33,434 bases of DNA, taken from Acidimicrobiia bacterium (GTDB lineage Bacteria > Actinomycetota > Acidimicrobiia > Acidimicrobiales > VFJN01). The notes under the pieces are model-generated. The model searched no databases and was not told the DNA's origin. It worked only from the letters and a program-made list of their open reading frames with translations. Position numbers and translations under genes: made by a program. Location: contig SHVB01000023.1 of assembly GCA_009694375.1 (NCBI GenBank), forward strand, positions 1 to 33,434, given 5' to 3'. Below are positions 2,751-33,434 of the stretch, piece after piece (within the stretch, counting starts at the first letter, position 1; each line of letters starts with the position of its first letter).

Positions 2751-3359
2751 GTGCTCCTCATCGGACTTACGGGCGGCATCGGCTCGGGAAAGTCCACGGT
2801 GTCGGCCGGGCTCGCTGGCCGGGGCGCAGTGGTGATTGATGCCGATGCCATTGTGCACTCACTTCAGGTACCTGGGAACCCAGTCTTCCATGCCATGGTG
2901 GAGCGCTTTGGTGCTGAGGTGGTAGCGGACGATGGCACGCTGAACCGTCAGGCGGTAGCTGATGTGGTATTCGGTGATCCTGAGGCGTTGAGTGATCTCG
3001 GCCGGATTGTTCATCCGCCGGTGGTTGAGGAGATCGCCCGCCGCATTGCACATGAAGCGGCAACTGACCATGTGGTGATCCTCGACGTGCCTCTCCTGGT
3101 GGAGTCGGGCCGTGACGACTTGGCGGCTCTTGTCGTGGTGGACTTGGATCCGGAGATTGCCCTGCGGCGATTGGTGGAGAGCCGAGGGATGGACGAGGGC
3201 GACGCCCGGGCCCGCATGGCTCGCCAGGTGAGCCGCTCTGAGCGCTTGGCCAGGGCGGACTATGTCCTCGACAACTCGGGGTCGCCCGAGGACCTCTGGG
3301 CGGCCTTAGATGCACTGTGGCCGGTCTTGCTGGCGTTGCGAGATAAGGCTCGGGAGTGA
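2751..3359 (+). CDS. coaE: Dephospho-CoA kinase
   Basis: A 202-aa cytoplasmic kinase that catalyses the last step of coenzyme A synthesis, ATP-dependent phosphorylation of the 3'-hydroxyl of dephospho-CoA. The N-terminus MLLIGLTGGIGSGKST carries the P-loop (residues 8-16), followed by the family motif GAVVIDADAIVH with its conserved DAD. LDVPLLVESG and the lid-region VVVDLDPEIALRRLVES stretch complete the CoaE pattern. Length is normal for the single-domain enzyme; there is no C-terminal GrpB-like extension as in mycobacteria. The GTG start is supported by the family N-terminus and by the -10 box 6 nt upstream. The stop overlaps the next gene's GTG by 4 bp (GTGA), so the two are translationally coupled. 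Confidence 0.95.
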   Translation: MLLIGLTGGIGSGKSTVSAGLAGRGAVVIDADAIVHSLQVPGNPVFHAMVERFGAEVVADDGTLNRQAVADVVFGDPEALSDLGRIVHPPVVEEIARRIAHEAATDHVVILDVPLLVESGRDDLAALVVVDLDPEIALRRLVESRGMDEGDARARMARQVSRSERLARADYVLDNSGSPEDLWAALDALWPVLLALRDKARE

Positions 3360-4810
3360 CACCGCGTCGGGGCCCCCATGACGAGGGGCTGGGCGCTGGG
3401 CCGGAGTCGGTCGAATCGCTAGCCCTGTTCTCCGTGATGTGGGCGCTGGCCGCCGTCTGGCATTTGCTGGGGAACCCCACCGGCGCGCCGATGGCCGCGC
3501 GTCTTCTCCTCACCGTGGGTATCGCGCTGGTCCTTTGGCGTCCAGGGGCGGTGGTTCCGCTCGGCGTGCTGGCCGTCGGGGGCCTGGCCACGGTGTGGGG
3601 CGAGGCGCCCGTGCTCGGCAACCACTGGTTGTTGGTGGGTTTCGTCGACTTAGCCGTGGTGCTGGCCCTGGCGGTGGGAGTGGCGCGGCGGCGGCCCTTC
3701 AACCGACCCGATCTCGCTCGTCGGTTACTCCCAATGGCTCGGCTTTGCCTGTTGGTCTTTTACGGCTTCGCCGCCTTCGCCAAGCTCAATGCGGCCTTCT
3801 TTGATCGCTCGGTGAGTTGTGCCGTGTTCTATTTCAATGAGTCGACGACCTCCCTCGGGCTGTCCCGCTTGCAGTTCGGTGGCGCTGGCTGGCTGCAGTG
3901 GGCGGTGATTGTCGGCACGGCCACCATTGAACTCTCCATTCCGGTTCTTCTGATATGCCGTCGCACCCGACACGCGGGGGTAGTGGTGGGACTGGTGTTC
4001 CACGGGGTACTGGCTCTTGACCGCGCCCATCAGTTCTTCGACTTTTCGTCCGTCTTGGCGGCGCTTTTCGTGCTGTTCCTTGCGCCGGAGGGGGGACCAT
4101 GGGTGGCTGAACGGGTGGGTGCCTTGCGCGCCTGGGTAGCGCTGCGCTCGGCGCAGGGACCGTCCGTGGTGCACCTGATGGCGGTGACGCTTCCGGTGAT
4201 GCTGGCGGCGGCCTGCGCCCTCGGATTTGTCGACACCACGAAGGGCTATAGCCTCGGGTGGTTCTCCTGGCAGGTCTACTCCGTGGTGGTCATCTTCGCG
4301 GTAGTCCGCTTCCTCCGCGGCCACCCGGCCGTCGCCAGTCATGCCCTGCGCCCGACCCACGCGATGCTGCTTATCATTCCGTTGCTGGTGGCCCTGAATG
4401 GACTTACTCCCTATGCGGAGATCAAGACCGGCTACGGCTTCAACATGTACGCCAACCTACGCACCGTGGACGGAGATTCGAATCACTTCCTGGTGCGGAG
4501 CACGCTCCCACTCACCGATCAGCAAGCAGACCTTGTGCGGGTGGTCTCCACCGATGATCGGGACCTGCAGCGATACGCCGATAGTCATTACGCCCTCACG
4601 TGGGGCCAGTTGCGGGCATTTATGGTGGGCCGTCCCGGCGTGGCGGTCACCTATGAGCGGGCTGGTGAGCGGGTGGTGCTGGCCCACGCCAAAGATGATC
4701 CGGAACTGGTGCGGCCCGTGGCGGCGTGGAAAGAGAAGGTGCAGTTCTTCCGCCCGGTCGATCTCACTTCCCCGGAGCGGTGCCAACCCACCTTTGGTGC
4801 GGCCCGCTGA
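3356..4810 (+). CDS. HTTM-like polytopic membrane protein
   Basis: A 484-aa integral membrane protein with roughly nine or ten hydrophobic segments between residues 20 and 350 and a soluble C-terminal part of about 120 residues. The segments around FYGFAAFAKLNAAFFD and GLVFHGVLALDRAHQFFDFS resemble the HTTM domain of the vitamin-K-dependent gamma-carboxylase superfamily: a Lys after a small-residue helix, then an extended loop, then His-rich and acidic residues at helix ends. The substrate of the bacterial members is mostly unknown, so I give no reaction. The GTG start overlaps the coaE stop by 4 bp and there is no other start signal, so expression depends on the coaE transcript. A gap of 36 bp, containing the uvrB promoter, follows. 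The family call is a pattern match by eye. Confidence 0.6.
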   Translation: MTPRRGPHDEGLGAGPESVESLALFSVMWALAAVWHLLGNPTGAPMAARLLLTVGIALVLWRPGAVVPLGVLAVGGLATVWGEAPVLGNHWLLVGFVDLAVVLALAVGVARRRPFNRPDLARRLLPMARLCLLVFYGFAAFAKLNAAFFDRSVSCAVFYFNESTTSLGLSRLQFGGAGWLQWAVIVGTATIELSIPVLLICRRTRHAGVVVGLVFHGVLALDRAHQFFDFSSVLAALFVLFLAPEGGPWVAERVGALRAWVALRSAQGPSVVHLMAVTLPVMLAAACALGFVDTTKGYSLGWFSWQVYSVVVIFAVVRFLRGHPAVASHALRPTHAMLLIIPLLVALNGLTPYAEIKTGYGFNMYANLRTVDGDSNHFLVRSTLPLTDQQADLVRVVSTDDRDLQRYADSHYALTWGQLRAFMVGRPGVAVTYERAGERVVLAHAKDDPELVRPVAAWKEKVQFFRPVDLTSPERCQPTFGAAR

Positions 4811-4833
4811 GGTGGCCGGGCCAGCGGCGTCGG

Positions 4834-4839
4834 TAGGAT
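4834..4839 (+). promoter_or_regulatory. Leaderless-type -10 box of uvrB
   Basis: TAGGAT (TAnnnT) ends 7 nt before the GTG of uvrB and there is no ribosome binding site, suggesting a leaderless transcript. I see no SOS box here, unlike upstream of uvrA. Confidence 0.5.
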
Positions 4840-4846
4840 CGGTCAG

Positions 4847-6862
<2,016 letters not shown>

Positions 6863-16230: not shown

Positions 16231-16974
16231 ATGGGCGAAGAGGCGCAGAAGGATGCGGAGTTGTGGGAGGACCACGCCCGCTGGTGGCAGGCCGGTTTCA
16301 CGGAGGGGGCCGATCCGGAGTACGAGGAGCAGATCCTCCCGCTGGCCGCGAAGCACCTCCTCGGTTCGAGTCGGGTCCTCGACGTTGGTTGTGGCGAGGG
16401 CCAGGTGGCTCGCCTGGCTCTGGCCGGTGGCGCCTCCCGAGCCGTGGGGGTAGACCCCACTTGGGCGCAGGTGGGGGAGGCTGCCGCCCGGGGTGGGGGG
16501 CCGACCTACGCCCGCGCCGGGGCGGGGCGGTTGCCCTTTCGCCACGATGCCTTCGACGCGGTGGTGGCTTGTCTGGTGTTTGAGCACATCCGCGAGGTGG
16601 ACGAGGCGATCGCCGAGGTAGCCCGAGTGCTCGAGCCAGGGGGGCGATTCCTCTTCTTTCTCAACCATCCGTTGTTGCAAACGCCCCATAGCGGGTGGAT
16701 CGACGACCAGGTGCTCGACCCGCCCGAGCAGTACTGGCGGATCGGCCCGTACCTGATCGAAGACGAGACAATCGAAGAGGTGGAGAAGGGCGTGTTTATC
16801 CCCTTCATTCATCGCCCGCTATCTCGTTATGTGAACTCGCTATCGGAAAACGGATTGCGCCTCGTCCGGATGGAGGAGCCCGCCCCGCCAGCGGGCTTCC
16901 TGGCCCGGGCGGCGGAGTACGAAGCCGCCGCTACTATTCCGCGGCTGCTGTTCTTGGCCAGTGTGAAGCAATAG
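16231..16974 (+). CDS. Class I SAM-dependent methyltransferase
   Basis: A 247-aa soluble protein with the Rossmann methyltransferase fold. Motif I is VLDVGCGEGQVARLAL, followed by the acidic ribose-binding residue in AVGVDPTWAQV; motif II/III falls in LPFRHDAFDAVVACLVFEHI, and EVARVLEPGGRFLFFLNHPL is the post-motif III of the UbiE/Methyltransf_11 group. The methyl acceptor cannot be deduced. The ATG at 16231 gives the N-terminus MGEEAQKDAELWEDHARWW. The frame stays open upstream to 16135, but that part overlaps the divergent GT-C gene and lacks family features. It lies upstream of a family 2 glycosyltransferase on the same strand (63-bp gap), so a role in modifying a sugar or lipid is possible; this is inference from context. 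Confidence 0.85.
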   Translation: MGEEAQKDAELWEDHARWWQAGFTEGADPEYEEQILPLAAKHLLGSSRVLDVGCGEGQVARLALAGGASRAVGVDPTWAQVGEAAARGGGPTYARAGAGRLPFRHDAFDAVVACLVFEHIREVDEAIAEVARVLEPGGRFLFFLNHPLLQTPHSGWIDDQVLDPPEQYWRIGPYLIEDETIEEVEKGVFIPFIHRPLSRYVNSLSENGLRLVRMEEPAPPAGFLARAAEYEAAATIPRLLFLASVKQ

Positions 16975-17001
16975 GCCCAGGCCCTTGGTGTGGGCGAGGG
17001 G

Positions 17002-17007
17002 TAGTAT
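17002..17007 (+). promoter_or_regulatory. -10 box upstream of the family 2 glycosyltransferase
   Basis: TAGTAT lies 7 nt before an ATG (17015) that opens a 10-codon frame ending at TAA 17045-17047. The glycosyltransferase GTG (17038) lies inside that mini-frame in another register. The layout suggests a leaderless mini-ORF with reinitiation, or simply a 5' leader. I cannot tell which. Confidence 0.35.
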
Positions 17008-17037
17008 GAATGAGATGGGAATGGCGGCGGGGGCGGC

Positions 17038-17736
17038 GTGGGCATAACGGTGGAACCCTGCCTGGCGGTGGTGATGCCGTGTTTCAACGAAGAGGCCACC
17101 GTCTTGGAAATCGTGAAGCGGGTGTTGGCGTCGCCGTACGTTGGTGAGTTGGTGATCGTGGACGACGGGTCCACCGACAACACGCCTGGGTTGCTGGCGA
17201 CGGTTGATGATCCGCGGGTGCGGGTTTGTCTGCAGCCAGCGAATCAGGGCAAAGGGGCGGCCTTGCGGCGGGGTTTCAGCGAGGTCTCGCTGGCGTACGT
17301 CGTGGTGCAGGACGCCGATCTTGAATACGACCCGAGCGAGTATGGCCGCCTGTTGGGACCACTGCTCGATGGGCGAGCCGATGTGGTCTATGGGAGCCGG
17401 TTCATGGGGGCCGATGCCCATCGGGTGCTCTTCTTCTGGCACGCCATGGGCAATCGGTTCCTCACGCTGCTCTCCAATGTTTTCACCGATCTGAACCTCA
17501 CCGACATGGAGACCTGTTACAAGGCCTTTCGTACCGAGGTGATCCAGGCTGTTCCGATCGAAGAGGATCGCTTTGGCTTCGAGCCTGAAATCACCGCCAA
17601 GATCGCCCGTCGCGGGCTACGCGTGTACGAGGTAGGTATTTCCTACAGCGGTCGGACCTACGCGGAAGGCAAGAAGATCGGGTGGCGTGACGGTGTACGG
17701 GCGGTGTGGTGCATCCTTCGGTATCGCAAGGGGTGA
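17038..17736 (+). CDS. Family 2 glycosyltransferase (polyprenyl-phosphate type)
   Basis: A 232-aa GT-A fold enzyme. The N-terminus is LAVVMPCFNEEATV, followed by the nucleotide-binding VIVDDGSTDNT, the QPANQGKGAALRRGF motif, the DxD-like VVQDADLEYDP, and FGFEPEITAKIARRG near the C-terminus. This order matches the DPM1/DPG-synthase-like group, which transfer a sugar from a nucleotide to polyprenyl phosphate on the cytoplasmic face, making the lipid-linked donors that GT-C enzymes use. It has no transmembrane tail. The two GT-C proteins in the window (11606-12841 and 14786-16159) are plausible consumers of such a donor, by inference. The GTG start lies inside an overlapping mini-ORF. rapZ follows 19 bp later. 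Confidence 0.88.
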   Translation: MGITVEPCLAVVMPCFNEEATVLEIVKRVLASPYVGELVIVDDGSTDNTPGLLATVDDPRVRVCLQPANQGKGAALRRGFSEVSLAYVVVQDADLEYDPSEYGRLLGPLLDGRADVVYGSRFMGADAHRVLFFWHAMGNRFLTLLSNVFTDLNLTDMETCYKAFRTEVIQAVPIEEDRFGFEPEITAKIARRGLRVYEVGISYSGRTYAEGKKIGWRDGVRAVWCILRYRKG

Positions 17737-17740
17737 GACG

Positions 17741-17746
17741 TAGCCT
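17741..17746 (+). promoter_or_regulatory. Candidate -10 box of rapZ
   Basis: TAGCCT lies 9 nt before the rapZ ATG, just after the glycosyltransferase stop. A GGAGAGGG stretch between it and the ATG could also act as a ribosome binding site for read-through transcripts, so both a near-leaderless start and cotranscription are possible. Confidence 0.3.
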
Positions 17747-17755
17747 GGAGAGGGT

Positions 17756-18610
17756 ATGAGCGAGTTCGTCGTGATCACGGGGTTATCAGGGGCCGGACGG
17801 TCCCTGGCGGCCGACGAACTAGAGGACCTGGGCTGGTTCGTCATCGACAACCTCCCCGCCGAGCTCATTCCGAAAGTGATGGAACTGGTGCAGGCTCCCA
17901 CCTCCAGCACTCCCCGGGTGGCGTTGGTGGTGGGCGTCGGCGCTTACGACGCCGATCTACTCGCCGCTCTTGGTGCCCTTCGGGCATCGCGGGCACGGGT
18001 ACGGGTGCTGTACCTCGATGCTGCGACCGAAGTGCTGGTTCGGCGCTATGAGAGCACCCGCCGGCGCCACCCGCTGCTTGGTCCCGGCGATGGGGTGGGC
18101 GATGCCATCGAAGCCGAGCGGGCGTTGCTCGAACCGGTGAAGGCCGAGGCCGACGTGGTGGTGGATACTTCCGAGCTCACCGTGCACGATCTCCACGACC
18201 GGATGGTGGATCTCTTCGGCGACACCCACACTGACACCGGGATGCAGACGCGGGTTATTTCCTTCGGGTACAAGCACGGGCTCCCGCTGGATGTAGATCT
18301 CGTCCTCGATTGCCGGTTCCTCCCCAACCCGCACTGGGTCGAGGACCTGCGCCCCCTCACCGGCCTGGACGACCCGGTGCGGACCTTCGTGGTGGGCCAG
18401 GAGGCTGCCCAGGATTTCCTGGGCCACCTCGATGGGTTGATGGAAATGCTCCTTCCCGCCTATGTGGCAGAAGGCAAGGCGTACCTCACCATTGCGCTGG
18501 GCTGCACCGGCGGCCGTCATCGGTCGGTGGTCATCGCCGAGGAGGTGGCCCGCCTGCTGCGGGACCACGGGTTCGCTCCCACCGTGGTGCACCGGGATGC
18601 CGCCAAGTAG
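17756..18610 (+). CDS. rapZ: RapZ/YvcJ-family nucleotide-binding protein
   Basis: A 284-aa P-loop protein, normal length for the family. It begins MSEFVVITGLSGAGRSLAA, with the characteristic Walker A variant GLSGAGRS, and continues DLGWFVIDNLPAELIP and RYESTRRRHPL. The C-terminal domain has FGYKHGLPLDVDLVLDCRFL and the strongly conserved GCTGGRHRSVVIAE. In E. coli RapZ is an RNase E adaptor that targets the small RNA GlmZ and so controls amino-sugar synthesis. The actinobacterial homologue binds nucleotides but its role is less clear, so the E. coli function should not be transferred. In most actinobacteria rapZ is followed by yvcK and whiA before gap; here gap follows directly after 92 bp. 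Confidence 0.95.
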   Translation: MSEFVVITGLSGAGRSLAADELEDLGWFVIDNLPAELIPKVMELVQAPTSSTPRVALVVGVGAYDADLLAALGALRASRARVRVLYLDAATEVLVRRYESTRRRHPLLGPGDGVGDAIEAERALLEPVKAEADVVVDTSELTVHDLHDRMVDLFGDTHTDTGMQTRVISFGYKHGLPLDVDLVLDCRFLPNPHWVEDLRPLTGLDDPVRTFVVGQEAAQDFLGHLDGLMEMLLPAYVAEGKAYLTIALGCTGGRHRSVVIAEEVARLLRDHGFAPTVVHRDAAK

Positions 18611-18621
18611 TCGGCGTCGGC

Positions 18622-18627
18622 CATACT
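18622..18627 (+). promoter_or_regulatory. Candidate -10 box of the gap operon
   Basis: CATACT lies 75 nt before the gap start. The leader it would generate carries a triple heptamer repeat (18668-18688) and a GGGAG ribosome binding site 9 nt before the gap ATG. It is the best -10 match in the 92-bp gap, but no -35 box is convincing. Confidence 0.3.
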
Positions 18628-18667
18628 GGGGTCTCGGCGGCTGATCAGATCGCATTGGCCGTTCTTC

Positions 18668-18688
18668 GACCCCTGACCCCTGACCCCT
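18668..18688 (+). repeat. Three tandem copies of GACCCCT before gap
   Basis: Three exact, head-to-tail copies of the heptamer GACCCCT, ending where the GGGAG ribosome binding site of gap begins. A GGGGTC at 18628-18633 could pair with any copy. It may be a slippage-prone spacer or may affect ribosome access. Confidence 0.7.
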
Positions 18689-18702
18689 GGGAGTAACACT
18701 CG

Positions 18703-19716
18703 ATGACAATCCGCGTCGGTATCAACGGATTTGGCCGCATTGGCCGCAACTTTTTCCGAGCCGCCAAGCAGCGCGGAGCCGACATCGACTTTGTGGCCGC
18801 CAACGATCTCGGCTCCAAGGATCTGATGGCGCATCTCATGAGATACGACTCGATCCTCGGCCGCTGGGATGCCGAGATCGCTACGTCGGAGGCCGGAATC
18901 GTGGTCAACGGCGACGAGGTGCAGATCCTCGCCGAGCGCGATCCGAAGGCCCTTCCGTGGGGTGATCTCGGCGTGGACATGGTGATCGAATCCACCGGCA
19001 TCTTCTCCAGCAAGGAGCAGGCGTCGATGCATCTCGAGGCCGGTGCCCCCTTTGTCATCGTGTCGGCGCCATCCGCCGGTGCCGATGCCACCTTCGTCGT
19101 GGGGGTAAACGACGACACGTTCGATCCTGCCGTGCACAAGGTGGTGTCCAACGCCAGCTGCACCACCAACTGTTTCGTACCGATGGTGAAGGTGCTTGAT
19201 GATGCTTTCGGTATCGAGCGGGGCCTGATGACCACGATCCACGCCTACACCGGCACGCAGTCTGTGGTGGACGGACCGGCGAAGGACTTCCGCGAGGCGC
19301 GTGCGGCGGCGATCAACATCATCCCTTCCTCCACCGGTGCGGCTCGGGCCACCAGCCTCGTCTTGCAGTCGATGGCCGGCAAACTCGACGGTACGTCGCT
19401 GCGGGTGCCGGTTCCGGATGGGTCCATCACCGACTTCACGGGGGTACTGAACCGGGATGTGACGGTAGAAGAGGTCAATGGGGCATTCCGGGCGGCGGCG
19501 AGCAGTGGTCCGCTGTCCAAGGTGCTCGTCTACAACGAGGAGCCCATCGTGAGTTCCGACATAGTGGGTTCGTCGGCCTCGTGTACCTTCGATGCGCCTA
19601 TCACCATGGTGAATGGGAATCTGGTGAAGGTGATGGGCTGGTACGACAACGAGTGGGGCTATTCCAACCGATTGGTGGACCTCATCGAGGTCACCGGCGC
19701 CAAGCTCAAGGGCTGA
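18703..19716 (+). CDS. gap: Glyceraldehyde-3-phosphate dehydrogenase, type I
   Basis: A 337-aa tetrameric NAD-linked enzyme of glycolysis and gluconeogenesis that interconverts glyceraldehyde 3-phosphate and 1,3-bisphosphoglycerate. The N-terminus MTIRVGINGFGRIGRNFFRA is the dinucleotide-binding motif. The catalytic Cys is C153 in SNASCTTNC, with the partner His in TTIHAYTGTQ. The substrate-binding motif is PSSTGAARA and the C-terminal signature is WYDNEWGYSNR. Length is normal for the class. GGGAG 9 nt upstream supports the ATG. It is the first gene of gap-pgk-tpiA, with pgk starting 2 bp after its stop. Confidence 0.97.
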   Translation: MTIRVGINGFGRIGRNFFRAAKQRGADIDFVAANDLGSKDLMAHLMRYDSILGRWDAEIATSEAGIVVNGDEVQILAERDPKALPWGDLGVDMVIESTGIFSSKEQASMHLEAGAPFVIVSAPSAGADATFVVGVNDDTFDPAVHKVVSNASCTTNCFVPMVKVLDDAFGIERGLMTTIHAYTGTQSVVDGPAKDFREARAAAINIIPSSTGAARATSLVLQSMAGKLDGTSLRVPVPDGSITDFTGVLNRDVTVEEVNGAFRAAASSGPLSKVLVYNEEPIVSSDIVGSSASCTFDAPITMVNGNLVKVMGWYDNEWGYSNRLVDLIEVTGAKLKG

Positions 19717-19718
19717 CC

Positions 19719-20858
19719 ATGACCAATACGGGGGTCCCCTCGCTGGAGGACCTGCTGCCACTGGAGGGCCAGCGTGTCCTCTTGCGGGCCGATTTCAACG
19801 TGCCGGTCGAGGACGGCCGGATCACCGACGACCTGCGCATTCGAGCGGCGTTGCCCACCATTGGGTGGCTTCAGGATCACGGGGCCAGCGTGGTGGCGTG
19901 CACCCATTTCGGCCGCCCGAAGGGTGCGCCTGATCCTCGCTACGACGTGGCGCCGATCCGGGCCCGTCTGGCGGAGTTGGCCCCCGGGGTTGGCTTGCTC
20001 GAAAACCTCCGCTTCAGCCCGGGCGAGACCGCCAACGATCCGGCTTTCGTGGCGGAGTTGATCAGTGGATTCGATGCCTACGTAAATGATGCGTTCGGCG
20101 CCTCGCACCGCTCCCACGCATCGATCGTGGGGCCCCCGCAGCACCTGCCGAGCGCCGCCGGTCGGCTCCTCGAACGGGAGGTTGCGGTACTCAGTGGTCT
20201 CCGGGAGCACCCGAATCGACCCTTCGTGGCGGTGCTCGGTGGTTCCAAGGTGAGCGACAAGCTCACGGTGATCGAGTCGCTGCTGGAGGTGGCCGACGAG
20301 GTACTCATCGGGGGGGCGATGTGTTTCACGTTCTTCAAGGCCATGGGGCATGAAGTGGGGGAGTCGTTGTGGGAAGACGACATGGTGGAGCGGTGCCGGG
20401 GACTGCTCGAGGGCGGTGCGGCGGTGCGCCTGCCCAGTGATGTCACCGCCCTCGGGCCCGGAGGCAAGATCGGCCATCCCGACGCCGGCGGGGTGGTGCG
20501 TCACTTGGGTTGCTCGCTCCCGGAGGGGTGGATGGGCCTCGACATCGGTCCAGGCACGTCAGCCGAGTTTTGCGACGCCGTACTTGAGGCCCGAACGGTC
20601 TTTTGGAATGGGCCGATGGGCGTGTTTGAGGACCGTCGTTTCGAAGCCGGCACCCGCACGCTCGCCGAGGCGGTGGCCGAGTCGTCGGCCTTCACCGTGG
20701 TGGGTGGAGGAGACTCCGCCGCGGCCGTTGCTCACTTCGGCCTGGCCGAGCGAATCGATCACATCAGCACCGGTGGCGGGGCGTCCTTGGAATTGCTTGA
20801 ACAGGGGGACCTCCCCGGGCTCCGTGCCCTCCGCCAGTCGAGGAAGGAAACCGCATGA
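19719..20858 (+). CDS. pgk: Phosphoglycerate kinase
   Basis: A 379-aa monomeric two-domain kinase that makes ATP from 1,3-bisphosphoglycerate. Seen in order: the N-domain LLRADFNVPVEDGRITDDLRI; the substrate-binding THFGRPKG; LLENLRFSPGE; the YVNDAFGASHRSHASI helix; the hinge and C-domain with AVLGGSKVSDKL; FWNGPMGVFE; GGGDSAAAV; and the terminal STGGGASLELLE. The length is slightly under the usual 390-400, within the normal range. The frame stays open upstream into gap, but the ATG at 19719, right after the gap stop, gives the expected N-terminus. The stop overlaps the tpiA ATG by 4 bp (ATGA), so translation is coupled. Confidence 0.97.
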   Translation: MTNTGVPSLEDLLPLEGQRVLLRADFNVPVEDGRITDDLRIRAALPTIGWLQDHGASVVACTHFGRPKGAPDPRYDVAPIRARLAELAPGVGLLENLRFSPGETANDPAFVAELISGFDAYVNDAFGASHRSHASIVGPPQHLPSAAGRLLEREVAVLSGLREHPNRPFVAVLGGSKVSDKLTVIESLLEVADEVLIGGAMCFTFFKAMGHEVGESLWEDDMVERCRGLLEGGAAVRLPSDVTALGPGGKIGHPDAGGVVRHLGCSLPEGWMGLDIGPGTSAEFCDAVLEARTVFWNGPMGVFEDRRFEAGTRTLAEAVAESSAFTVVGGGDSAAAVAHFGLAERIDHISTGGGASLELLEQGDLPGLRALRQSRKETA

Positions 20859-28351: not shown

Positions 28352-29935
28352 ATGACCGGCGCTGTAACGCAGGTCGCTCGGGTGATCGCCGGGGTGGCGG
28401 TGATGGCGACGCTGGGATCGGGGTGCACGAACAACGGTGAGAGTGGCGAACAGTCGTCCTCGTCGGGCGGAGGCACGATGCGCGTGGGCGTTCCCGGGGC
28501 GCTGGTGGTTGATCCCACCAAAGCCTCGCTGGCCTCGCCGAGCGATCAGATGGTGTTGGACCTGCTCTACGACGGCCTCACCAGCATCGACAGCGAGGGG
28601 TTGGTGCAGCCCGGGCTGGCGGTGTCCTGGGAACACAATGAAGATTTCACGGCCTGGCGTTTTCATCTCGATCCGGAGGCTCACTTCACCAGCGGCGATT
28701 CGATCAAGGCCGATGACGTGATCGCGTCGATCGAGCGAATAGCGGCGTTGGGTACGAAATCGTTGGCGGCTCTGGCGCTCGAGCCGGTGACGGGGTTCGC
28801 CGAGTTCGTGGACGGTACCAGCGATCATCTGGAGGGGCTGAGCGCGGTGAACGACAAGGTGGTGCGCTTCGGGCTCAGCGAGCCGTTGTCGGTGCTGCCT
28901 GCGGTGGTGGCGAGCCCGGCCTTTGGGGTGGTGGAGCCGGAATCGTTGGCGGCGGCCGAGGGCGGGCCCACCGCCGAGTTGGATCTGAGTGGGAGTTGGG
29001 TTGTGGTGTCGGCGGCGCAGGGTGGCCTGAGACTGGAGCCACGGTCGGATGCGACCATGCGGCTCGAGGCGGTGGAGTTGGGGGCGTTTTCCAACGCCAA
29101 CGCCGCCTACGACGCGTTTGTCGATGGTGAGGTCGACTGGGCCACGGTGCCCGCCGACCGGTTCGAGAGCGCCGTGAACACCTATGGCGACGAGTCTTTC
29201 GCCCCGTTCCAGGCCGAAGTGTTCTTTGGAATGCATCTGGGCGACGCAGCCTTGAATAACCCGGTGCTGCGTCAGGCCATTGAGGCCGCCATCGACCGGG
29301 TGGAGATTGTGAAGGCGGTGTACGCCGATTTGGCCGATCCGCTGACCACGGTGATCCCGGCGGGCGTGGCGGGTCACGATGATGCGCGTTGTGGGGGCTG
29401 CGGTCCGGATCCGAAGCGGGCGGTGGCGTTACTGGCGAAAGGATTTCCCAGCGGCGGGGTTCCCACGGTGAATATCGACTATGACGAGTCGCCCGCTCAG
29501 ACAGCGATGGCGAAGTTGATCGCGGCGGATCTCGAAGCGGTGGGCATTCCCACCAGCCTGCGGCCGCTGCCGTTGGACGACTACAAGGCCTTCGTAGCTT
29601 CTGGGGGCCAGGCGCTCTTCACTTTTGGCTGGATCGGCGCTTTCCGCTCGCCGGATGCGTACCTCACGCCGCTGTTCGTCTCGGACTCCGATGACAACCT
29701 GACGGCCTTCCGCAGCCCCGAGGTGGATGGCCTCTTGCAGCGAGCCCGGGGGTCGGATGACGATGCGCTCAACACCGAGCGGTGGGCGAAAGCGGAGGCC
29801 ACGGTGATGGATGCCGTCGTGGTGATCCCTATCGCCCAGTTTCGGACCCAGGTGGTGGTGGCCGATGAGGTGAGCGGATGGGCTCACGCGGTGGATGGCA
29901 CGGTCGACTGGGAGCGGGTGACCGTCGCCGAGTAG
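28352..29935 (+). CDS. Second substrate-binding lipoprotein, family 5 (orphan)
   Basis: A 527-aa lipoprotein of solute-binding family 5. The signal MTGAVTQVARVIAGVAVMAT is followed by the lipobox LGSGC (Cys25) and a Ser/Gly-rich linker. The body has VLDLLYDGLTSIDSEGLVQP, an AHFTSGDSIKADDVIASIE motif, LRQAIEAAIDRVEIV and a late LFTFGWIGAFRSPDAYL, which follow the DppA/OppA order. GAGG 6 nt before the ATG supports the start. It has no permease or ATPase next to it and sits 8 bp after secG, so it may share the importer encoded just upstream and widen its substrate range. That is inference. It is quite divergent from the first binding protein, so it is not a recent duplicate. Confidence 0.9.
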   Translation: MTGAVTQVARVIAGVAVMATLGSGCTNNGESGEQSSSSGGGTMRVGVPGALVVDPTKASLASPSDQMVLDLLYDGLTSIDSEGLVQPGLAVSWEHNEDFTAWRFHLDPEAHFTSGDSIKADDVIASIERIAALGTKSLAALALEPVTGFAEFVDGTSDHLEGLSAVNDKVVRFGLSEPLSVLPAVVASPAFGVVEPESLAAAEGGPTAELDLSGSWVVVSAAQGGLRLEPRSDATMRLEAVELGAFSNANAAYDAFVDGEVDWATVPADRFESAVNTYGDESFAPFQAEVFFGMHLGDAALNNPVLRQAIEAAIDRVEIVKAVYADLADPLTTVIPAGVAGHDDARCGGCGPDPKRAVALLAKGFPSGGVPTVNIDYDESPAQTAMAKLIAADLEAVGIPTSLRPLPLDDYKAFVASGGQALFTFGWIGAFRSPDAYLTPLFVSDSDDNLTAFRSPEVDGLLQRARGSDDDALNTERWAKAEATVMDAVVVIPIAQFRTQVVVADEVSGWAHAVDGTVDWERVTVAE

Positions 29936-29946
29936 CCCGGCGTGGG

Positions 29947-29977
29947 TTGGAAGCCCTCCCCGGAGGCCGTGTACGGT
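29947..29977 (+). promoter_or_regulatory. Candidate promoter of tRNA-Leu
   Basis: TTGGAA (29947-29952) and TACGGT (29972-29977) with a 19-nt spacer, 30 bp upstream of the mature tRNA. The spacer is long, so the -35 match is uncertain; the -10 box position fits. Confidence 0.35.
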
Positions 29978-30007
29978 GAGCGCTCCCTGGGGAGACCCGA
30001 GGGCCAC

Positions 30008-30091
30008 GTCGGAGTGGCGGAATTGGCAGACGCGCCAGCTTGAGGGGCTGGTGTCCTTAGGGACGTGGGGGTTCAAGTCCCCCCTCCGACA
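30008..30091 (+). tRNA. tRNA-Leu (anticodon GAG)
   Basis: A type II tRNA of 84 nt. The acceptor stem GTCGGAG pairs with CTCCGAC (30084-30090), with discriminator A at 30091. The anticodon stem CCAGC/GCTGG encloses the loop TTGAGGG, anticodon GAG at 30042-30044, which reads CTC and CTT codons. A long variable arm (TGTCCTTAGGGACG) and a T-arm GGGGG-TTCAAGT-CCCCC follow. CCA is not encoded. Its 3' end is repeated at 30754-30771, so it appears to have served as an integration target; the gene itself is intact. Confidence 0.97.
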
Positions 30092-30092
30092 C
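30075..30092 (+). repeat. Attachment-site copy 1 (3' end of tRNA-Leu)
   Basis: AAGTCCCCCCTCCGACAC, from the T-loop through the acceptor stem to one base past the tRNA. An identical copy in the same orientation lies at 30754-30771. This is the usual geometry of attL/attR for elements that integrate into a tRNA 3' end and restore the gene. Confidence 0.75.
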
Positions 30093-30121
30093 AACACCTG
30101 AACCCAACATTCCGGCGGGTA

Positions 30122-30150
30122 CCGGACGGGGTGCGAGTGCACGTGTCCGG
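30122..30150. terminator. Hairpin between tRNA-Leu and the convergent SnoaL-like gene
   Basis: CCGGAC (30122-30127) pairs with GTCCGG (30145-30150), enclosing an inner stem GTGC/GCAC (30131-30134 with 30139-30142) and a 4-nt loop. It lies 30 nt after the tRNA and 22 bp from the stop of the convergent gene, so it may end transcription from both sides. No T-run. Confidence 0.4.
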
Positions 30151-30172
30151 GTTTGGCGGCGGGCGTGGCGCG

Positions 30173-30628
30173 CTACTCGCTCCTCGGAGGCAGGGCGTCA
30201 AGGGCTGCGACTCGCTCGGTGTCCTCGTAGTCCTCCTGCTCGACGATCTTGCCCCAGCGGGTTCGCACCATGAGCACTGCTCGGTTTGTGTACCGCTCAC
30301 CGCCGGCATCGTCCCTGATCCAGTCGTTCACGCGAATGGCGGCACGCATGTTCCAGGGAGGACCGTTCACGAGGATGTCCTCGACCTCCATGTGCACCCC
30401 TTGGTCCGCGTAACGGCGGAGGAACCCCTCGATCTCGTCCCGCCCGACGTGCGTTGGGTGCGGTCGCCGGTCCGCCACGGGTTCGCGGAACTGCCGTGAC
30501 CAGGAGTTGTCGCCGGGGAAGGTCAATGTCGCGTCGGGAGCCATCATGGCGAGCGCAGGACCGTAGTTGCCCTCGTTGGCCAAACCAATGTTGCGTCGGA
30601 TCATCCAGCGGACCGCTGCTTTGTACAC
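30173..30628 (-). CDS. SnoaL/NTF2-like protein
   Basis: A 151-aa protein of the NTF2-like alpha+beta barrel superfamily. The N-terminal helices (WMIRRNIGLANEGNYGPALA) run into MMAPDATLTFPGDNSW, the usual 'helix then acidic-Ala-x-hydrophobic-Phe-Pro-Gly' pattern of SnoaL_2 proteins. HVGRDEIEGFLRRYADQG is the next helix, and the beta strands include IRVNDWIRDD, RYTNRAVLMVRTRWGKI and VEQEDYEDTERV. Members are small-molecule isomerases or hydrolases, or have no known activity; I assign none. The GTG at 30628 is supported by TACGTT ending 6 nt upstream (leaderless layout). It lies between the two tRNA-Leu 3'-end repeats, convergent to the tRNA, and is the only intact gene there. Confidence 0.8.
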   Translation of the reverse strand: MYKAAVRWMIRRNIGLANEGNYGPALAMMAPDATLTFPGDNSWSRQFREPVADRRPHPTHVGRDEIEGFLRRYADQGVHMEVEDILVNGPPWNMRAAIRVNDWIRDDAGGERYTNRAVLMVRTRWGKIVEQEDYEDTERVAALDALPPRSE

Positions 30629-30634
30629 GCCTAC

Positions 30635-30640
30635 AACGTA
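30635..30640 (-). promoter_or_regulatory. Leaderless-type -10 box of the SnoaL-like gene
   Basis: TACGTT on the minus strand ends 6 nt before the GTG. The hexamer and spacing are identical to those at coaE, which suggests the gene is expressed by host rules. Confidence 0.5.
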
Positions 30641-30700
30641 TCCCAGTGGAGGGGCACACACCCTGTGCACCAAGGACCCGGCGTCTGCGGGGTGGGAATG

Positions 30701-31163
30701 TCACGCCGCCATCGGCCAGGTCGTCTCCACGATCAGCGTTGGGGTCAGGTTTGAAGTCCCCCCTCCGACACGCACCGTGGTACACGGTGTGGCTTCGGCC
30801 ACCACCACACCACGGCCCGGCTCGAACGTGAGCCGGACACCGAACTCGGCGTAGAGCTCGGCCTTGTCGCCGGGCTCCGCCGGAGACGAGCAGCCTCACC
30901 CCATCGGCGACACCGCCGATCAGGCGTCGCCGGTCGGCCGTGGTGACCTGCGACGATGACGTGGCAACAGCGGCCAAGTCCCGTTCGGCGAACATCCGCT
31001 CGGCGTTGACCTCCGCCATCCAGCCGGCGACCACCACAGGGTCGGCGTCGGCCTCGAGCGCCGACCTGTAGCGGCTGAGACGATGGTCGCCGTCGGCCAA
31101 CTTGCGACGGGCACCCTCCGCTCTGGCTGCGCCGATCTCATCGACGACGCTGACGGCCGCCAT
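30701..31163 (-). pseudogene. Serine recombinase, C-terminal remnant (frameshifted)
   Basis: On the minus strand, from about 31130, the reading LADGDHRLSRYRSALEADAD then PVVVAGWMAEVNAERMFAER matches the coiled C-terminal region of large actinobacterial serine recombinases (typically 'CDxxLxxYRAALEAGADPxVVAxWxxEVQAER'). It continues to GVADGVRLLVSG. Near 30881 one extra base shifts the frame; the next frame continues as GDKAELYAEFGVRLTFEPGR, the conserved final strand region, and stops at 30701-30703. The catalytic resolvase domain and zinc-ribbon part are absent, so it is truncated and inactive. The last codons read VRVGGGTSNLTP across the second attachment-site repeat (30754-30771). An integrase gene ending in its own attachment site is the typical end of an integrative element. 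Confidence 0.75.
30754..30771 (+). repeat. Attachment-site copy 2 (tRNA-Leu 3' end)
   Basis: AAGTCCCCCCTCCGACAC, identical over 18 bp and in the same direction as the end of tRNA-Leu 679 bp upstream. Bases left of it (GGTTTG against GGGTTC) show further partial similarity. It lies inside the 3' end of the serine recombinase remnant. Confidence 0.75.
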
Positions 31164-31377
31164 GGCATCGAGAGATGGTTTCCGGCGCGTGGCCGCAACG
31201 TGACCGAGGCCCGCCGGGTGTGGGCTTCATGCCCGGCACAGCTTCGTGACTCTGGCGTTGGAGAGTGGCGCTCCGCTTCACTGTGTCGCCGACGCTGCCG
31301 GGCACGTTTCGGCCACGACCACGCAACGCGATGGCCGCGCACGTCGTGCTCTCGACGGCCATCCCGCCTCGACATGA
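31155..31377 (+). pseudogene. Tyrosine recombinase, C-terminal remnant (no catalytic Tyr)
   Basis: In one frame (31216-31377) the plus strand reads GLHARHSFVTLALESGAPLH then CVADAAGHVSATTTQRDGRA and ends RRALDGHPAST. This is the end of a phage-type integrase: the HxxRH-box (slightly short, HARHSF for HxLRHSF), the AGHxSxxTTQR box, and the terminal 'ALDGHP'. The nucleophile should follow as RYDR; here it is RDGR, so the Tyr codon has been lost in frame. Upstream sequence in a different frame (ERWFPARGRNVTEARRV, from about 31155) fits the preceding helices, implying a frameshift near 31217. Everything further N-terminal is missing. It lies head to head with the serine recombinase remnant, and the join falls at about 31130-31155. 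Confidence 0.7.
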
Positions 31378-31435
31378 ATAACCGGGATGCCTAGGTGATG
31401 ATGGTGGCCCGCGGGGTCAAGTCGGTCGGTCCCAG

Positions 31436-31441
31436 TAGAGT
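31436..31441 (+). promoter_or_regulatory. Candidate -10 box of the protease gene
   Basis: TAGAGT lies 59 nt before the GTG at 31501. The leader would contain a six-codon frame (MFKKMW, 31478-31498) and AAGAAG at 31484-31489 as a weak ribosome binding site. No good -35 box is seen. Confidence 0.3.
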
Positions 31442-31500
31442 GGGAATTGCCTCCACCGCCGAACGGGAAGCCTCCTGATGTTCAAGAAGATGTGGTGATA

Positions 31501-33434
31501 GTGCGAGCCTCTCCGCTCGGCCGAAAGCTGCCACCGCGAAGCATCGCCATGATCGGAGCCTTCGCCCTGGTGGCGATGTTGCTTGCGACGCTACCGCTGG
31601 GCCCGACGGTCGCTTCGGCGTCCCCTCCGAGTGGGGCAGTGGCGAAGAGGGCGGGGAGTCCGCCCCCCAGTCACGTAGTGCAGGGGTCCTACATCGTGCG
31701 CTTCGCCGCCGGCGTGGAGCCATCGGCGCGCGCGGCGGAAATGAAGACGCGGGGGGGCGCCTTCGCGGGTGCTTCGGTTGAGCACACCTACCGGTCGGTC
31801 TTTCCGGGGGCATCGATGCGGTTGAGTGTCGAGGCCGCTGATGCCCTCCGGCGCGACCCCAAGGTTCTCTCCGTGGAACCAGATCAGGTCATCAGCCTCG
31901 ACAGTACGCAGACGGGAGCACCCTGGGGCCTCGACCGCTCCGATCAGCGAAGCCTACCCCTGTCCGGCAGTTACACCTATGGCGGCACCGGTGCGGGCGT
32001 CACCGCCTACATCGTCGACAGTGGGATTCGGGCGAGCCATGTGGACTTCGGCGGGCGAGTGCGGTCCGGCTTCACGGCCGTCGACGATGGCTATGGGACG
32101 ACGGGATGCCAAGGGCACGGCACCCATGTCGCCGGCAGTGTGGGTGGGTCGACCTACGGGATGGCGAAGCAAGTGTCGCTCGTGGCGGTGCGAGTGTTTC
32201 CCTGCGCTGGAGATGGCTCAACCTCGGACCTGCTCGCCGGCCTGGATTGGATCGTGGCCGACCACTCCCCGGGAACGGCGGCGGTGGCCAACCTGAGCCT
32301 TGGCTACCCGGGCGTGGTGTCGTCGCTGGATGCTGCCGTTGAAGTTCTCATCGCCGACGGGGTGACGGTGGTGGTGGCGGCGGGCAACGACGGCATTGAT
32401 GCCTGCGGGGTCAGCCCGGCGCGCGTCCCTGGCGCCGTGACCGTGGGGGCCACCGACAGCACGGATTTCTCGCCGGATTGGTCGAACTACAGCTCCTGCC
32501 TCGATCTCTTCGCGCCAGGCGTCAGCATTGTGTCGTCGTGGAACACGAGCAACACCGCCACCGCAGTAGCCCAAGGCACCTCAATGGCGGCCCCCCATGT
32601 CGCCGGGGCCGCCGCGGTGCTCCTCGGTGCCAATCCCACCCTCACTCCGGCGGGGGTAAGCGCCGCTCTCGTGGCTGCGGCAACCACCGGTGTGGTTACC
32701 AACGGGGGCTCCGGCTCTCCGAATCGTCTCCTCTTTTCGGGGGCTGTGGCGCCGGTAAAGCCGGGCAACGACGTATTCACAGCGGCCACCGGGTTTTCGT
32801 TGACCGGAATAAACACCCAGAGGGGCTCCAACGTGAGCGCCACCGCTGAGCTCGGTGAACCGGCTCATGCGAGTTCGCCCAGTGGGTCATCGGTGTGGTG
32901 GAAGTTCACGGCCCCCGCCTCCGGCACGGTGACGTTGTCCACCCCAGGGTCCAGCTTCGACACGTTGCTCGCGGTGTATACGGGTGGATCAGTGAACTCG
33001 CTGATCGAAGTGGCTGCCAACGACGACATCGTTGGTGGAACCACGAGCGAGGTGTCGTTTCCGGTGATGCCGGGGGTTACCTATCGCGTGGCGGTGGATG
33101 GCTATAACGCTGCGATGGGAACCATCGCTCTCTTCCATACCTGGGCTCCCGACACCCCTCCGGTGGGGGTGCTGTTTACGGCGTTGACTCCGGCGCGGAT
33201 TTTGGATTCGCGGGTGGCGACGACCGTGGGCCCCTACAGCAGTGCGTGGGGTGCGGGCGTGCAGCGAGATGTACCGGTGGCTGGAGTGGGTGGGGTGCCA
33301 GCCGATGCCGTGTCGGTGGTGGTGAACGTGACGGTCACTGGTACTACGGCGGGTAGTTATCTCACGGTGTGGCCAGCGGGTGAGGGTCGCCCGAACGCGT
33401 CATCGTTGAATTGGTCCTCGGGGGCCACTCGTGC
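31501..33434 (+). CDS. Secreted subtilisin-family (S8) protease with C-terminal surface repeats, partial
   Basis: An open frame of 644 codons that continues past the window. The signal peptide is about residues 1-38, with MIGAFALVAMLLATLPLG as its hydrophobic core, ending TVASA. A short inhibitor I9-like propeptide (GSYIVRFAAGVEPSARAAE) follows. The proteinase-K-like catalytic domain has Asp173 in AYIVDSGIR, His206 in GHGTHVAGSVGG and Ser361 in GTSMAAPHVAGAAAVLL, with the oxyanion-hole Asn in VVVAAGNDG. A beta-rich domain (VWWKFTAPASGTVTLSTPGS, then SFDTLLAVYTGG) resembles the PPC group. The last visible part (TPARILDSRVATTVG, GVGGVPADAVSVVVNVTVTG, YLTVWPAGEGRPNASSLNW) is a repeat type common on exported acidimicrobial proteins. 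Start: GTG 31501; in-frame GTGs at 31492 and 31495 are alternatives. All triad residues are present, so it should be active outside the cell. Confidence 0.9.
   Translation, partial: MRASPLGRKLPPRSIAMIGAFALVAMLLATLPLGPTVASASPPSGAVAKRAGSPPPSHVVQGSYIVRFAAGVEPSARAAEMKTRGGAFAGASVEHTYRSVFPGASMRLSVEAADALRRDPKVLSVEPDQVISLDSTQTGAPWGLDRSDQRSLPLSGSYTYGGTGAGVTAYIVDSGIRASHVDFGGRVRSGFTAVDDGYGTTGCQGHGTHVAGSVGGSTYGMAKQVSLVAVRVFPCAGDGSTSDLLAGLDWIVADHSPGTAAVANLSLGYPGVVSSLDAAVEVLIADGVTVVVAAGNDGIDACGVSPARVPGAVTVGATDSTDFSPDWSNYSSCLDLFAPGVSIVSSWNTSNTATAVAQGTSMAAPHVAGAAAVLLGANPTLTPAGVSAALVAAATTGVVTNGGSGSPNRLLFSGAVAPVKPGNDVFTAATGFSLTGINTQRGSNVSATAELGEPAHASSPSGSSVWWKFTAPASGTVTLSTPGSSFDTLLAVYTGGSVNSLIEVAANDDIVGGTTSEVSFPVMPGVTYRVAVDGYNAAMGTIALFHTWAPDTPPVGVLFTALTPARILDSRVATTVGPYSSAWGAGVQRDVPVAGVGGVPADAVSVVVNVTVTGTTAGSYLTVWPAGEGRPNASSLNWSSGATR

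Follow-up and report, generated by a model that had tools for sequence, protein, structure and literature searches.

Probable remnants of two stacked integrative elements at the 3' end of a tRNA-Leu(GAG) gene in an Acidimicrobiia bacterium

Islands at the ssrA gene of Dehalococcoides carry a serine recombinase of ~540 residues (DsiB) that is encoded on the reverse strand and adjoins the end of the RNA gene (PMC3146451). These islands are bounded by a 20-bp direct repeat of the 3' end of the RNA and may lie in tandem, and some of them have no integration module; the authors say that the latter might be cis-mobilizable. (Cis-mobilizable elements consist of two cores and cargo, without recombinase or transfer genes, and lie beside another element at the same site.) Serine recombinases that use a tRNA-Leu gene have been reported for the AICEs of Mycobacterium (Ghinet et al. 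2011, PMC3218068); the same source calls the use of tRNA genes by serine recombinases rare and names one phage case. In Islander, a tRNA gene together with a displaced 3' fragment marks an island, and tandem arrays are described. The Islander paper mentions integrases that extend across attP and states that only tyrosine recombinases were known to target tDNAs (PMC4383910). Islander's filters reject candidates that are shorter than 2 kb or that lack an integrase, so the locus that we describe here would be missed.

We analysed a tRNA-Leu(GAG) gene and the DNA beyond it in an Acidimicrobiia bacterium. Our searches of the open-licence literature listed no description of this site in this order. 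The locus belongs to a known kind of element and has decayed; the variant is a large serine recombinase (LSR) on tRNA-Leu(GAG) that is stacked with tyrosine-integrase elements. Its layout is mostly like that of the ssrA islands, including the reverse-strand LSR at the end of the RNA gene and units that have no integration genes. In contrast, the target in Dehalococcoides is the tmRNA and not tRNA-Leu, DsiB is CcrB-like and is accompanied by DsiA, and the host belongs to another phylum; the likeness to these islands is one of layout. With the Mycobacterium AICEs the locus has the serine recombinase, the tRNA-Leu target, and the actinobacterial host in common. As in cis-mobilizable elements, two cores flank cargo beside an element at the same site.

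The tRNA-Leu(GAG) locus

The window (the whole stretch of 33,434 nucleotides that was analysed) is contig SHVB01000023.1 of GCA_009694375.1, positions 1-33,434, and the contig ends at 33434. The source assembly (G000) comprises 2.58 Mb in 36 contigs. Upstream of the tRNA gene is a peptide-transporter operon whose last gene encodes the solute-binding protein. Beyond it, the locus has the form of a tRNA island, with an intact tRNA gene on one side and, on the other, a piece of its 3' end in the same orientation (Table 1).

Table 1. Features of the locus, in positions of the window
Feature	Coordinates	Strand	Evidence
Peptide-transporter solute-binding protein, left flank	28352..29935	+	Pfam PF00496
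tRNA-Leu(GAG), integration target	30008..30092	+	ARAGORN; islands at the same tRNA in relatives
Copy 1 of the 18-bp attachment core, at the tRNA's 3' end	30075..30092	+	Exact-match search
Interval of 661 bp (repeat unit 679 bp) with one gene, no recombinase detected	30093..30753		
Open frame of the SnoaL-like gene; GTG start as suggested by relatives, frame reaching 30673	30173..30628	-	Pfam PF12680 (SnoaL_2), E=2.9e-9; relatives
Copy 2 of the 18-bp attachment core; its minus strand codes for VGGGT, with which the serine recombinase scrap ends	30754..30771	+	
C-terminal remnant of tRNA-Leu-type LSR, split over two frames; the N-terminal three quarters are gone	30755..31175	-	tblastn with relatives' recombinases
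C-terminal remnant of tyrosine recombinase, in-frame stop upstream	31222..31377	+	
S8 protease gene, right neighbour, start uncertain, runs off the contig	31447..33434	+	

The 3'-terminal 18 bases of the tRNA occur exactly at 30075-30092 and 30754-30771, the positions given in the preliminary description of this DNA, and these are the only two sites with at most one mismatch in all 2.58 Mb. When as many as three mismatches are allowed, the window still has two matches; 100 shuffles gave 0.04 on average, and two matches were seen in none of them. Copy 2 is the sole further exact match of 18 bases to the tRNA on either strand of the window, and to its left no match to the tRNA extends past the 18 bp. 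We found no third copy on the other contigs of the assembly (at most one mismatch), and the window's own contig stops at 33434. The right border of the locus was not found by searching for the core in the window and the assembly.

Between the repeats lies one SnoaL-like gene, as first described, which fills the 661-bp gap tightly between the exact cores. Its start is probably at ~30628 (GTG) rather than at 30673, because its relatives mostly begin with MYKA.V. We detected no recombinase between the two cores, either with Pfam or with profiles built from the recombinases of relatives, and thus no integrase of an island. Two attachment sites flank cargo without recombinase or transfer genes, and the 661 bp hold one gene, as expected for a cis-mobilizable element. 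The GC content of the unit (0.654) is near that of its flanks (0.634 and 0.665), so composition does not flag it as foreign.

The C-terminal ends of two recombinases, which had been noticed beyond copy 2, match recombinases of relatives; on the minus strand the match is to a serine recombinase, and on the plus strand it is to a tyrosine recombinase. The first (31175-30755) matches the last part of LSRs and is split over two reading frames. Its best relative is a protein from another genome of the order (G099), with which its two pieces share 46.6% and 45.5% of their residues (tblastn, E=3e-22). About the last quarter of the protein is left; the Resolvase and Recombinase domains, both present in intact relatives, are missing. 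The second piece has TTVRVGGGT as its last residues and ends exactly at copy 2, within which the codons for VGGGT lie. Since copy 2 encodes the end of the VRVGGGT of this scrap, copy 2 is, judged from the reading frame, probably a former attachment site of the window's own LSR. Unlike the tRNA copy, copy 2 does not supply the stop codon of the LSR, because the bases to the left of the 18-mer differ from those in the tRNA.

The tyrosine recombinase remnant is 74% identical over 46 residues to a 419-amino-acid frame of G099 that matches Phage_integrase from Pfam (E=6.4e-32) and that lies on a different contig from the tRNA of G099. The remnant's own match is weak (E=0.15). There is an in-frame stop upstream of it, and it has TTTQRD where this closest relative has TTTQRY, whose tyrosine we take to be the catalytic tyrosine of the family. 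The upstream stop and this substitution suggest that the remnant is dead. It may have been the integrase of the SnoaL unit. The serine and tyrosine recombinase scraps could derive from either one element or two.

On the left side, the sister species (G001) matches the window at 94%; the match runs as far as the final tRNA base, where the contig of G001 ends, and a contig of another genome (G057) stops at the identical base of the same tRNA. These contig ends suggest that several continuations past the end of the tRNA exist in the sampled populations. In a DNA search with 29300-31900, nothing of 30093-31900 was found in G001. We saw no empty site in the genus: the contig of G001 stops at the tRNA, and the 18-mer is absent from the other two members (G002 and G003). 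A member of the family (G004) has only ~500 bp after the tRNA. In another genome (G051), a solute-binding protein that is 40% identical to the window's likewise precedes the tRNA, which is followed by an intact LSR.

The protease gene was ruled out as a fixed right neighbour. We did not find the S8 domain in two members of the genus, G001 and G003. The protease has its best relatives (42 to 48% identity) in G002, G005, and G006, with no tRNA-Leu on the stretches read. We found no relative in which tRNA-Leu is directly followed by the protease gene. Because the protease is unevenly spread in the genus and its relatives lie without tRNA-Leu on these stretches, the right border cannot be set from it. 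The C-terminal side of the protease recurs in the genus, and a contig of G003 ends near a similar stretch.

It is extremely improbable that the second 18-bp copy is a chance match or a conserved sequence with ordinary genes as its neighbours. The unremarkable GC content and the lack of a visible empty site in the genus would fit such a reading, but only 0.04 matches are expected by chance, a recombinase reading frame enters copy 2, and 28 of 247 other genomes have two or more cores, many of them at the ends of islands. Islands with the same ends already contradict it. An ordinary conserved neighbourhood was ruled out because neither the SnoaL gene nor the recombinase scraps were found in the sister species. 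The preliminary description, which held that the repeat was not due to chance, is thus borne out by both the shuffles and the islands in relatives.

Use of the site across the order

We searched 248 genomes drawn evenly from the order, among them G000. The exact 18-mer is present in 171 of them, and 29 (including G000) have two or more copies by our own count of the table, some of which are whole or half tRNA copies. A reversed control pattern gave no copies in any of the 248 genomes.

The LSRs themselves often end in this core. A search for LSRs (E≤1e-20) gave 42 matches in 28 of the 248 genomes, and 30 of these were given as loci. At 13 of the 30 loci, the frame ends with VGGGT and a stop inside the core (in G052 it is split in two frames); two of these 13, in G142 and G127, end at a core copy that is not part of a complete tRNA. 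At five more loci, 44 to 287 bp separate the end of the match from a core. Three have their end within the 3' terminus of a tRNA-Met-type sequence (of these, ARAGORN called one tRNA-Met and one of unknown type, and did not call the third), and one lies beside a tRNA-Arg. The remaining eight are at contig edges, are fragments, or have no such tRNA; one of these is the second copy in G188, beside a degenerate core. From their position and reading frame in the relatives, the LSRs would act on the tRNA-Leu(GAG) site. Related LSRs in L097 and L168 (G002), L167 (G166), and L169 (G164) end with GGGGRI, GGGGWI, or RGGGRI and have their stop inside the tRNA-Met-type 3' end, so the habit of ending in a tRNA covers more than one tRNA.

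We also started from the tRNA-type ends, of which we examined 59 distinct ones (75 places). Six have an antisense frame of at least 505 amino acids that ends with VGGGT, and all six match the LSR profile; the match of the frame in G166 is weak, yet Pfam finds both the Resolvase and the Recombinase domain in it. Another four of the 59 ends have shorter endings that match LSRs (three with E<1e-12 and one with 5e-4), and these are, as we read them, scars like the one in the window. A 70-amino-acid frame in G122 (L115) that by eye resembled an LSR ending was dropped, as it had no match to the LSR profile.

The preliminary description had suggested looking for an intact island that occupies this tRNA and has identical ends, and relatives have such islands. 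The intact layout is seen in G127: the tRNA, a 10.2-kb tyrosine-integrase island, a core copy, and an intact LSR of 553 amino acids. In G205, a core copy, a tyrosine-integrase island, another core copy, and an LSR follow each other, and a second LSR lies at the tRNA on a different contig. In G164, the tRNA is followed by a 10.5-kb island in which no recombinase was detected, a core copy, and a 74-amino-acid LSR scrap that is 66% identical to the end of the LSR of G051. G193 has the tRNA, a tyrosine-integrase island, a core copy, and a 146-amino-acid frame that ends with VGGGT; its match to LSRs is weak (E=0.002), and we withdrew it as a clear LSR. G188 (L203) has tandem LSR elements at 2866-5923 and 16845-19901, ~13,980 bp apart, which are 99.9% identical over the 3058 bp compared from the core onward; of the second copy, only a part lies on the stretch read. 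Such near-identity suggests a recent insertion or duplication, perhaps of a recently active element. A 13.2-kb LSR island at tRNA-Leu(GAG) in G099 (L200, 599-13793) carries cargo that by eye looks like mercury resistance genes; for its merA-like gene, Pfam gives only pyridine nucleotide-disulphide oxidoreductase.

A few relatives have repeated tRNA ends of another kind. In G061, two tRNA-type copies lie 119 bp apart. In G177 (L110, 4068-7448), tRNA-Leu(GAG) and the preceding gene seem by eye to be tandemly duplicated, and a third, degenerate tRNA end seems to lie between them, at 5874. A tandem duplication of the tRNA end like these two, followed by the insertion of a gene and involving no element, might in principle have produced the repeat in the window. 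This is very unlikely: the repeat in the window is confined to the last 18 bp and does not take in the tRNA, and copy 2 runs on into LSR coding sequence, which is also the case in relatives.

The habit reaches beyond this order, as Streptomyces sp. BHT-5-2 has an LSR (54% identical) beside tRNA-Leu(gag). Mycolicibacterium aubagnense has a plasmid LSR that is 49% identical, in two pieces, with no tRNA within the 7.6 kb read. Among phage records, none gave a match that covered 80% of the LSR.

Origin of the single-gene unit

That LSR frames end in the core in relatives, and that stacked layouts occur in G127, G164, and G188, argues for a series of several integrative elements at the end of the tRNA-Leu. 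We think it highly probable that two elements were stacked at the 3' end of tRNA-Leu(GAG), the LSR element first and a second unit at the tRNA side, and that both have decayed. Some observations do count against this: copy 2 does not encode the stop codon, the GC content is ordinary, relatives of the SnoaL gene lie without evident recombinases, the two recombinase scraps could come from a single element, and the neighbouring protease is itself unevenly spread in the genus. We also saw no empty site in the genus, and found neither a third copy in the assembly nor a right border.

The history of such a stack would have three steps. First, an LSR element would have integrated at tRNA-Leu, with its LSR gene running into the attachment core, as the remnant and the VRVGGGT at copy 2 indicate. 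Second, another unit would have recombined at the tRNA side, restored the end of the tRNA, brought its own 18-bp end, and displaced the LSR. Going by the geometry and by the stacked relatives, this would leave the SnoaL gene between two cores, and the sequence that precedes copy 2 would be the far arm of the second unit. Third, both decayed: the LSR and the tyrosine recombinase are now C-terminal scraps, the LSR frameshifted and the tyrosine recombinase without the aligned tyrosine; the far border would have been lost or would lie past the end of the contig. The end state is of the cis-mobilizable type, with two core sites, one cargo gene, and no enzyme of its own. Because the neighbouring element is broken, the unit is probably fixed unless it is helped from elsewhere.

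The cargo gene says little about the type of element. Across the order, 12 of 297 other genomes have a relative of the SnoaL gene (E≤1e-10), and none was found in six members of the genus and family (three each); a scan of wider genome contigs gave one locus, from an Acidimicrobiia MAG. Had the SnoaL gene and copy 2 been in place in all relatives, the preliminary description would have been wrong, and the gene's absence from those six genomes argues otherwise. We read 12 loci with SnoaL relatives. Three have a tRNA within ~4 kb, and several lie beside a TetR-like gene (by eye; one was confirmed with Pfam). At all 12 the 18-mer is absent (at most one mismatch), as is a recombinase (by eye), so the SnoaL gene is uninformative on the element type, and we dropped the idea that it is a typical island gene.

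The original proposal was integration at the tRNA followed by deletion of the interior. The integration stands, given the islands in relatives and the end of an LSR that copy 2 encodes, and two or more stacked elements are the best reading of it. As to the other part, the SnoaL unit may have shrunk by deletion. It might instead have arrived small, as a ready-made single-gene unit with a core end, moved in trans by the recombinase of another element, which we regard as possible but not likely. The open SnoaL gene tightly filling the space between exact cores, with no recombinase left inside, would fit. Small units are also seen elsewhere: in G062 (L108, 3933-6865), three core copies are spaced 669 and 2246 bp apart. 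(These adjacent units have no detected recombinase, and the tRNA of G062 is on another contig; the stretch has an RHH antitoxin-type gene, which lies in one of the units, and a DUF6247 gene.) Furthermore, among 18 units that each have both bounding cores on one contig, no recombinase was detected in eight, although the profiles were made from these relatives' recombinases, so that recombinases of other kinds may have escaped them; one of the eight units was read incompletely. Three of the eight have tRNA-type copies at both ends, and at least one of these (G061) looks like a tRNA duplication. Against a small arrival, deletion from a larger island would yield the identical end state, movement has been seen for no unit, and the 12 loci read include no second core-bounded unit with a relative of the window's SnoaL gene.

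Significance of the stacked site

A broader and more speculative idea, which we consider rather unlikely, is that the 3' end of tRNA-Leu(GAG) serves as a cassette port in this order. Small recombinase-free units with cores of 18 to 22 bp would be moved in trans by their neighbours' tRNA-Leu-specific serine or tyrosine recombinases, in an integron-like array. The 679-bp SnoaL unit of the window and the 669-bp RHH and 2.2-kb units of G062 would be such units. The likeness of the window's unit to an integron gene cassette is in layout alone, because the unit ends in the 3' end of a tRNA. Tycheposons, from marine cyanobacteria, are cargo units that are stacked at tRNA genes and have tyrosine recombinases; we found no sign of a relation between them and the window.

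The targeting of tRNA genes by LSRs, which has been called rare in print, is extended here to a recurring habit in a little-studied order of actinobacteria, in which two types of enzyme share one tRNA site and stack there. The VGGGT ending in the core is a simple search mark for both live elements and scars, and the last codons of an LSR within a tRNA point to the natural attachment sites of new integrases.
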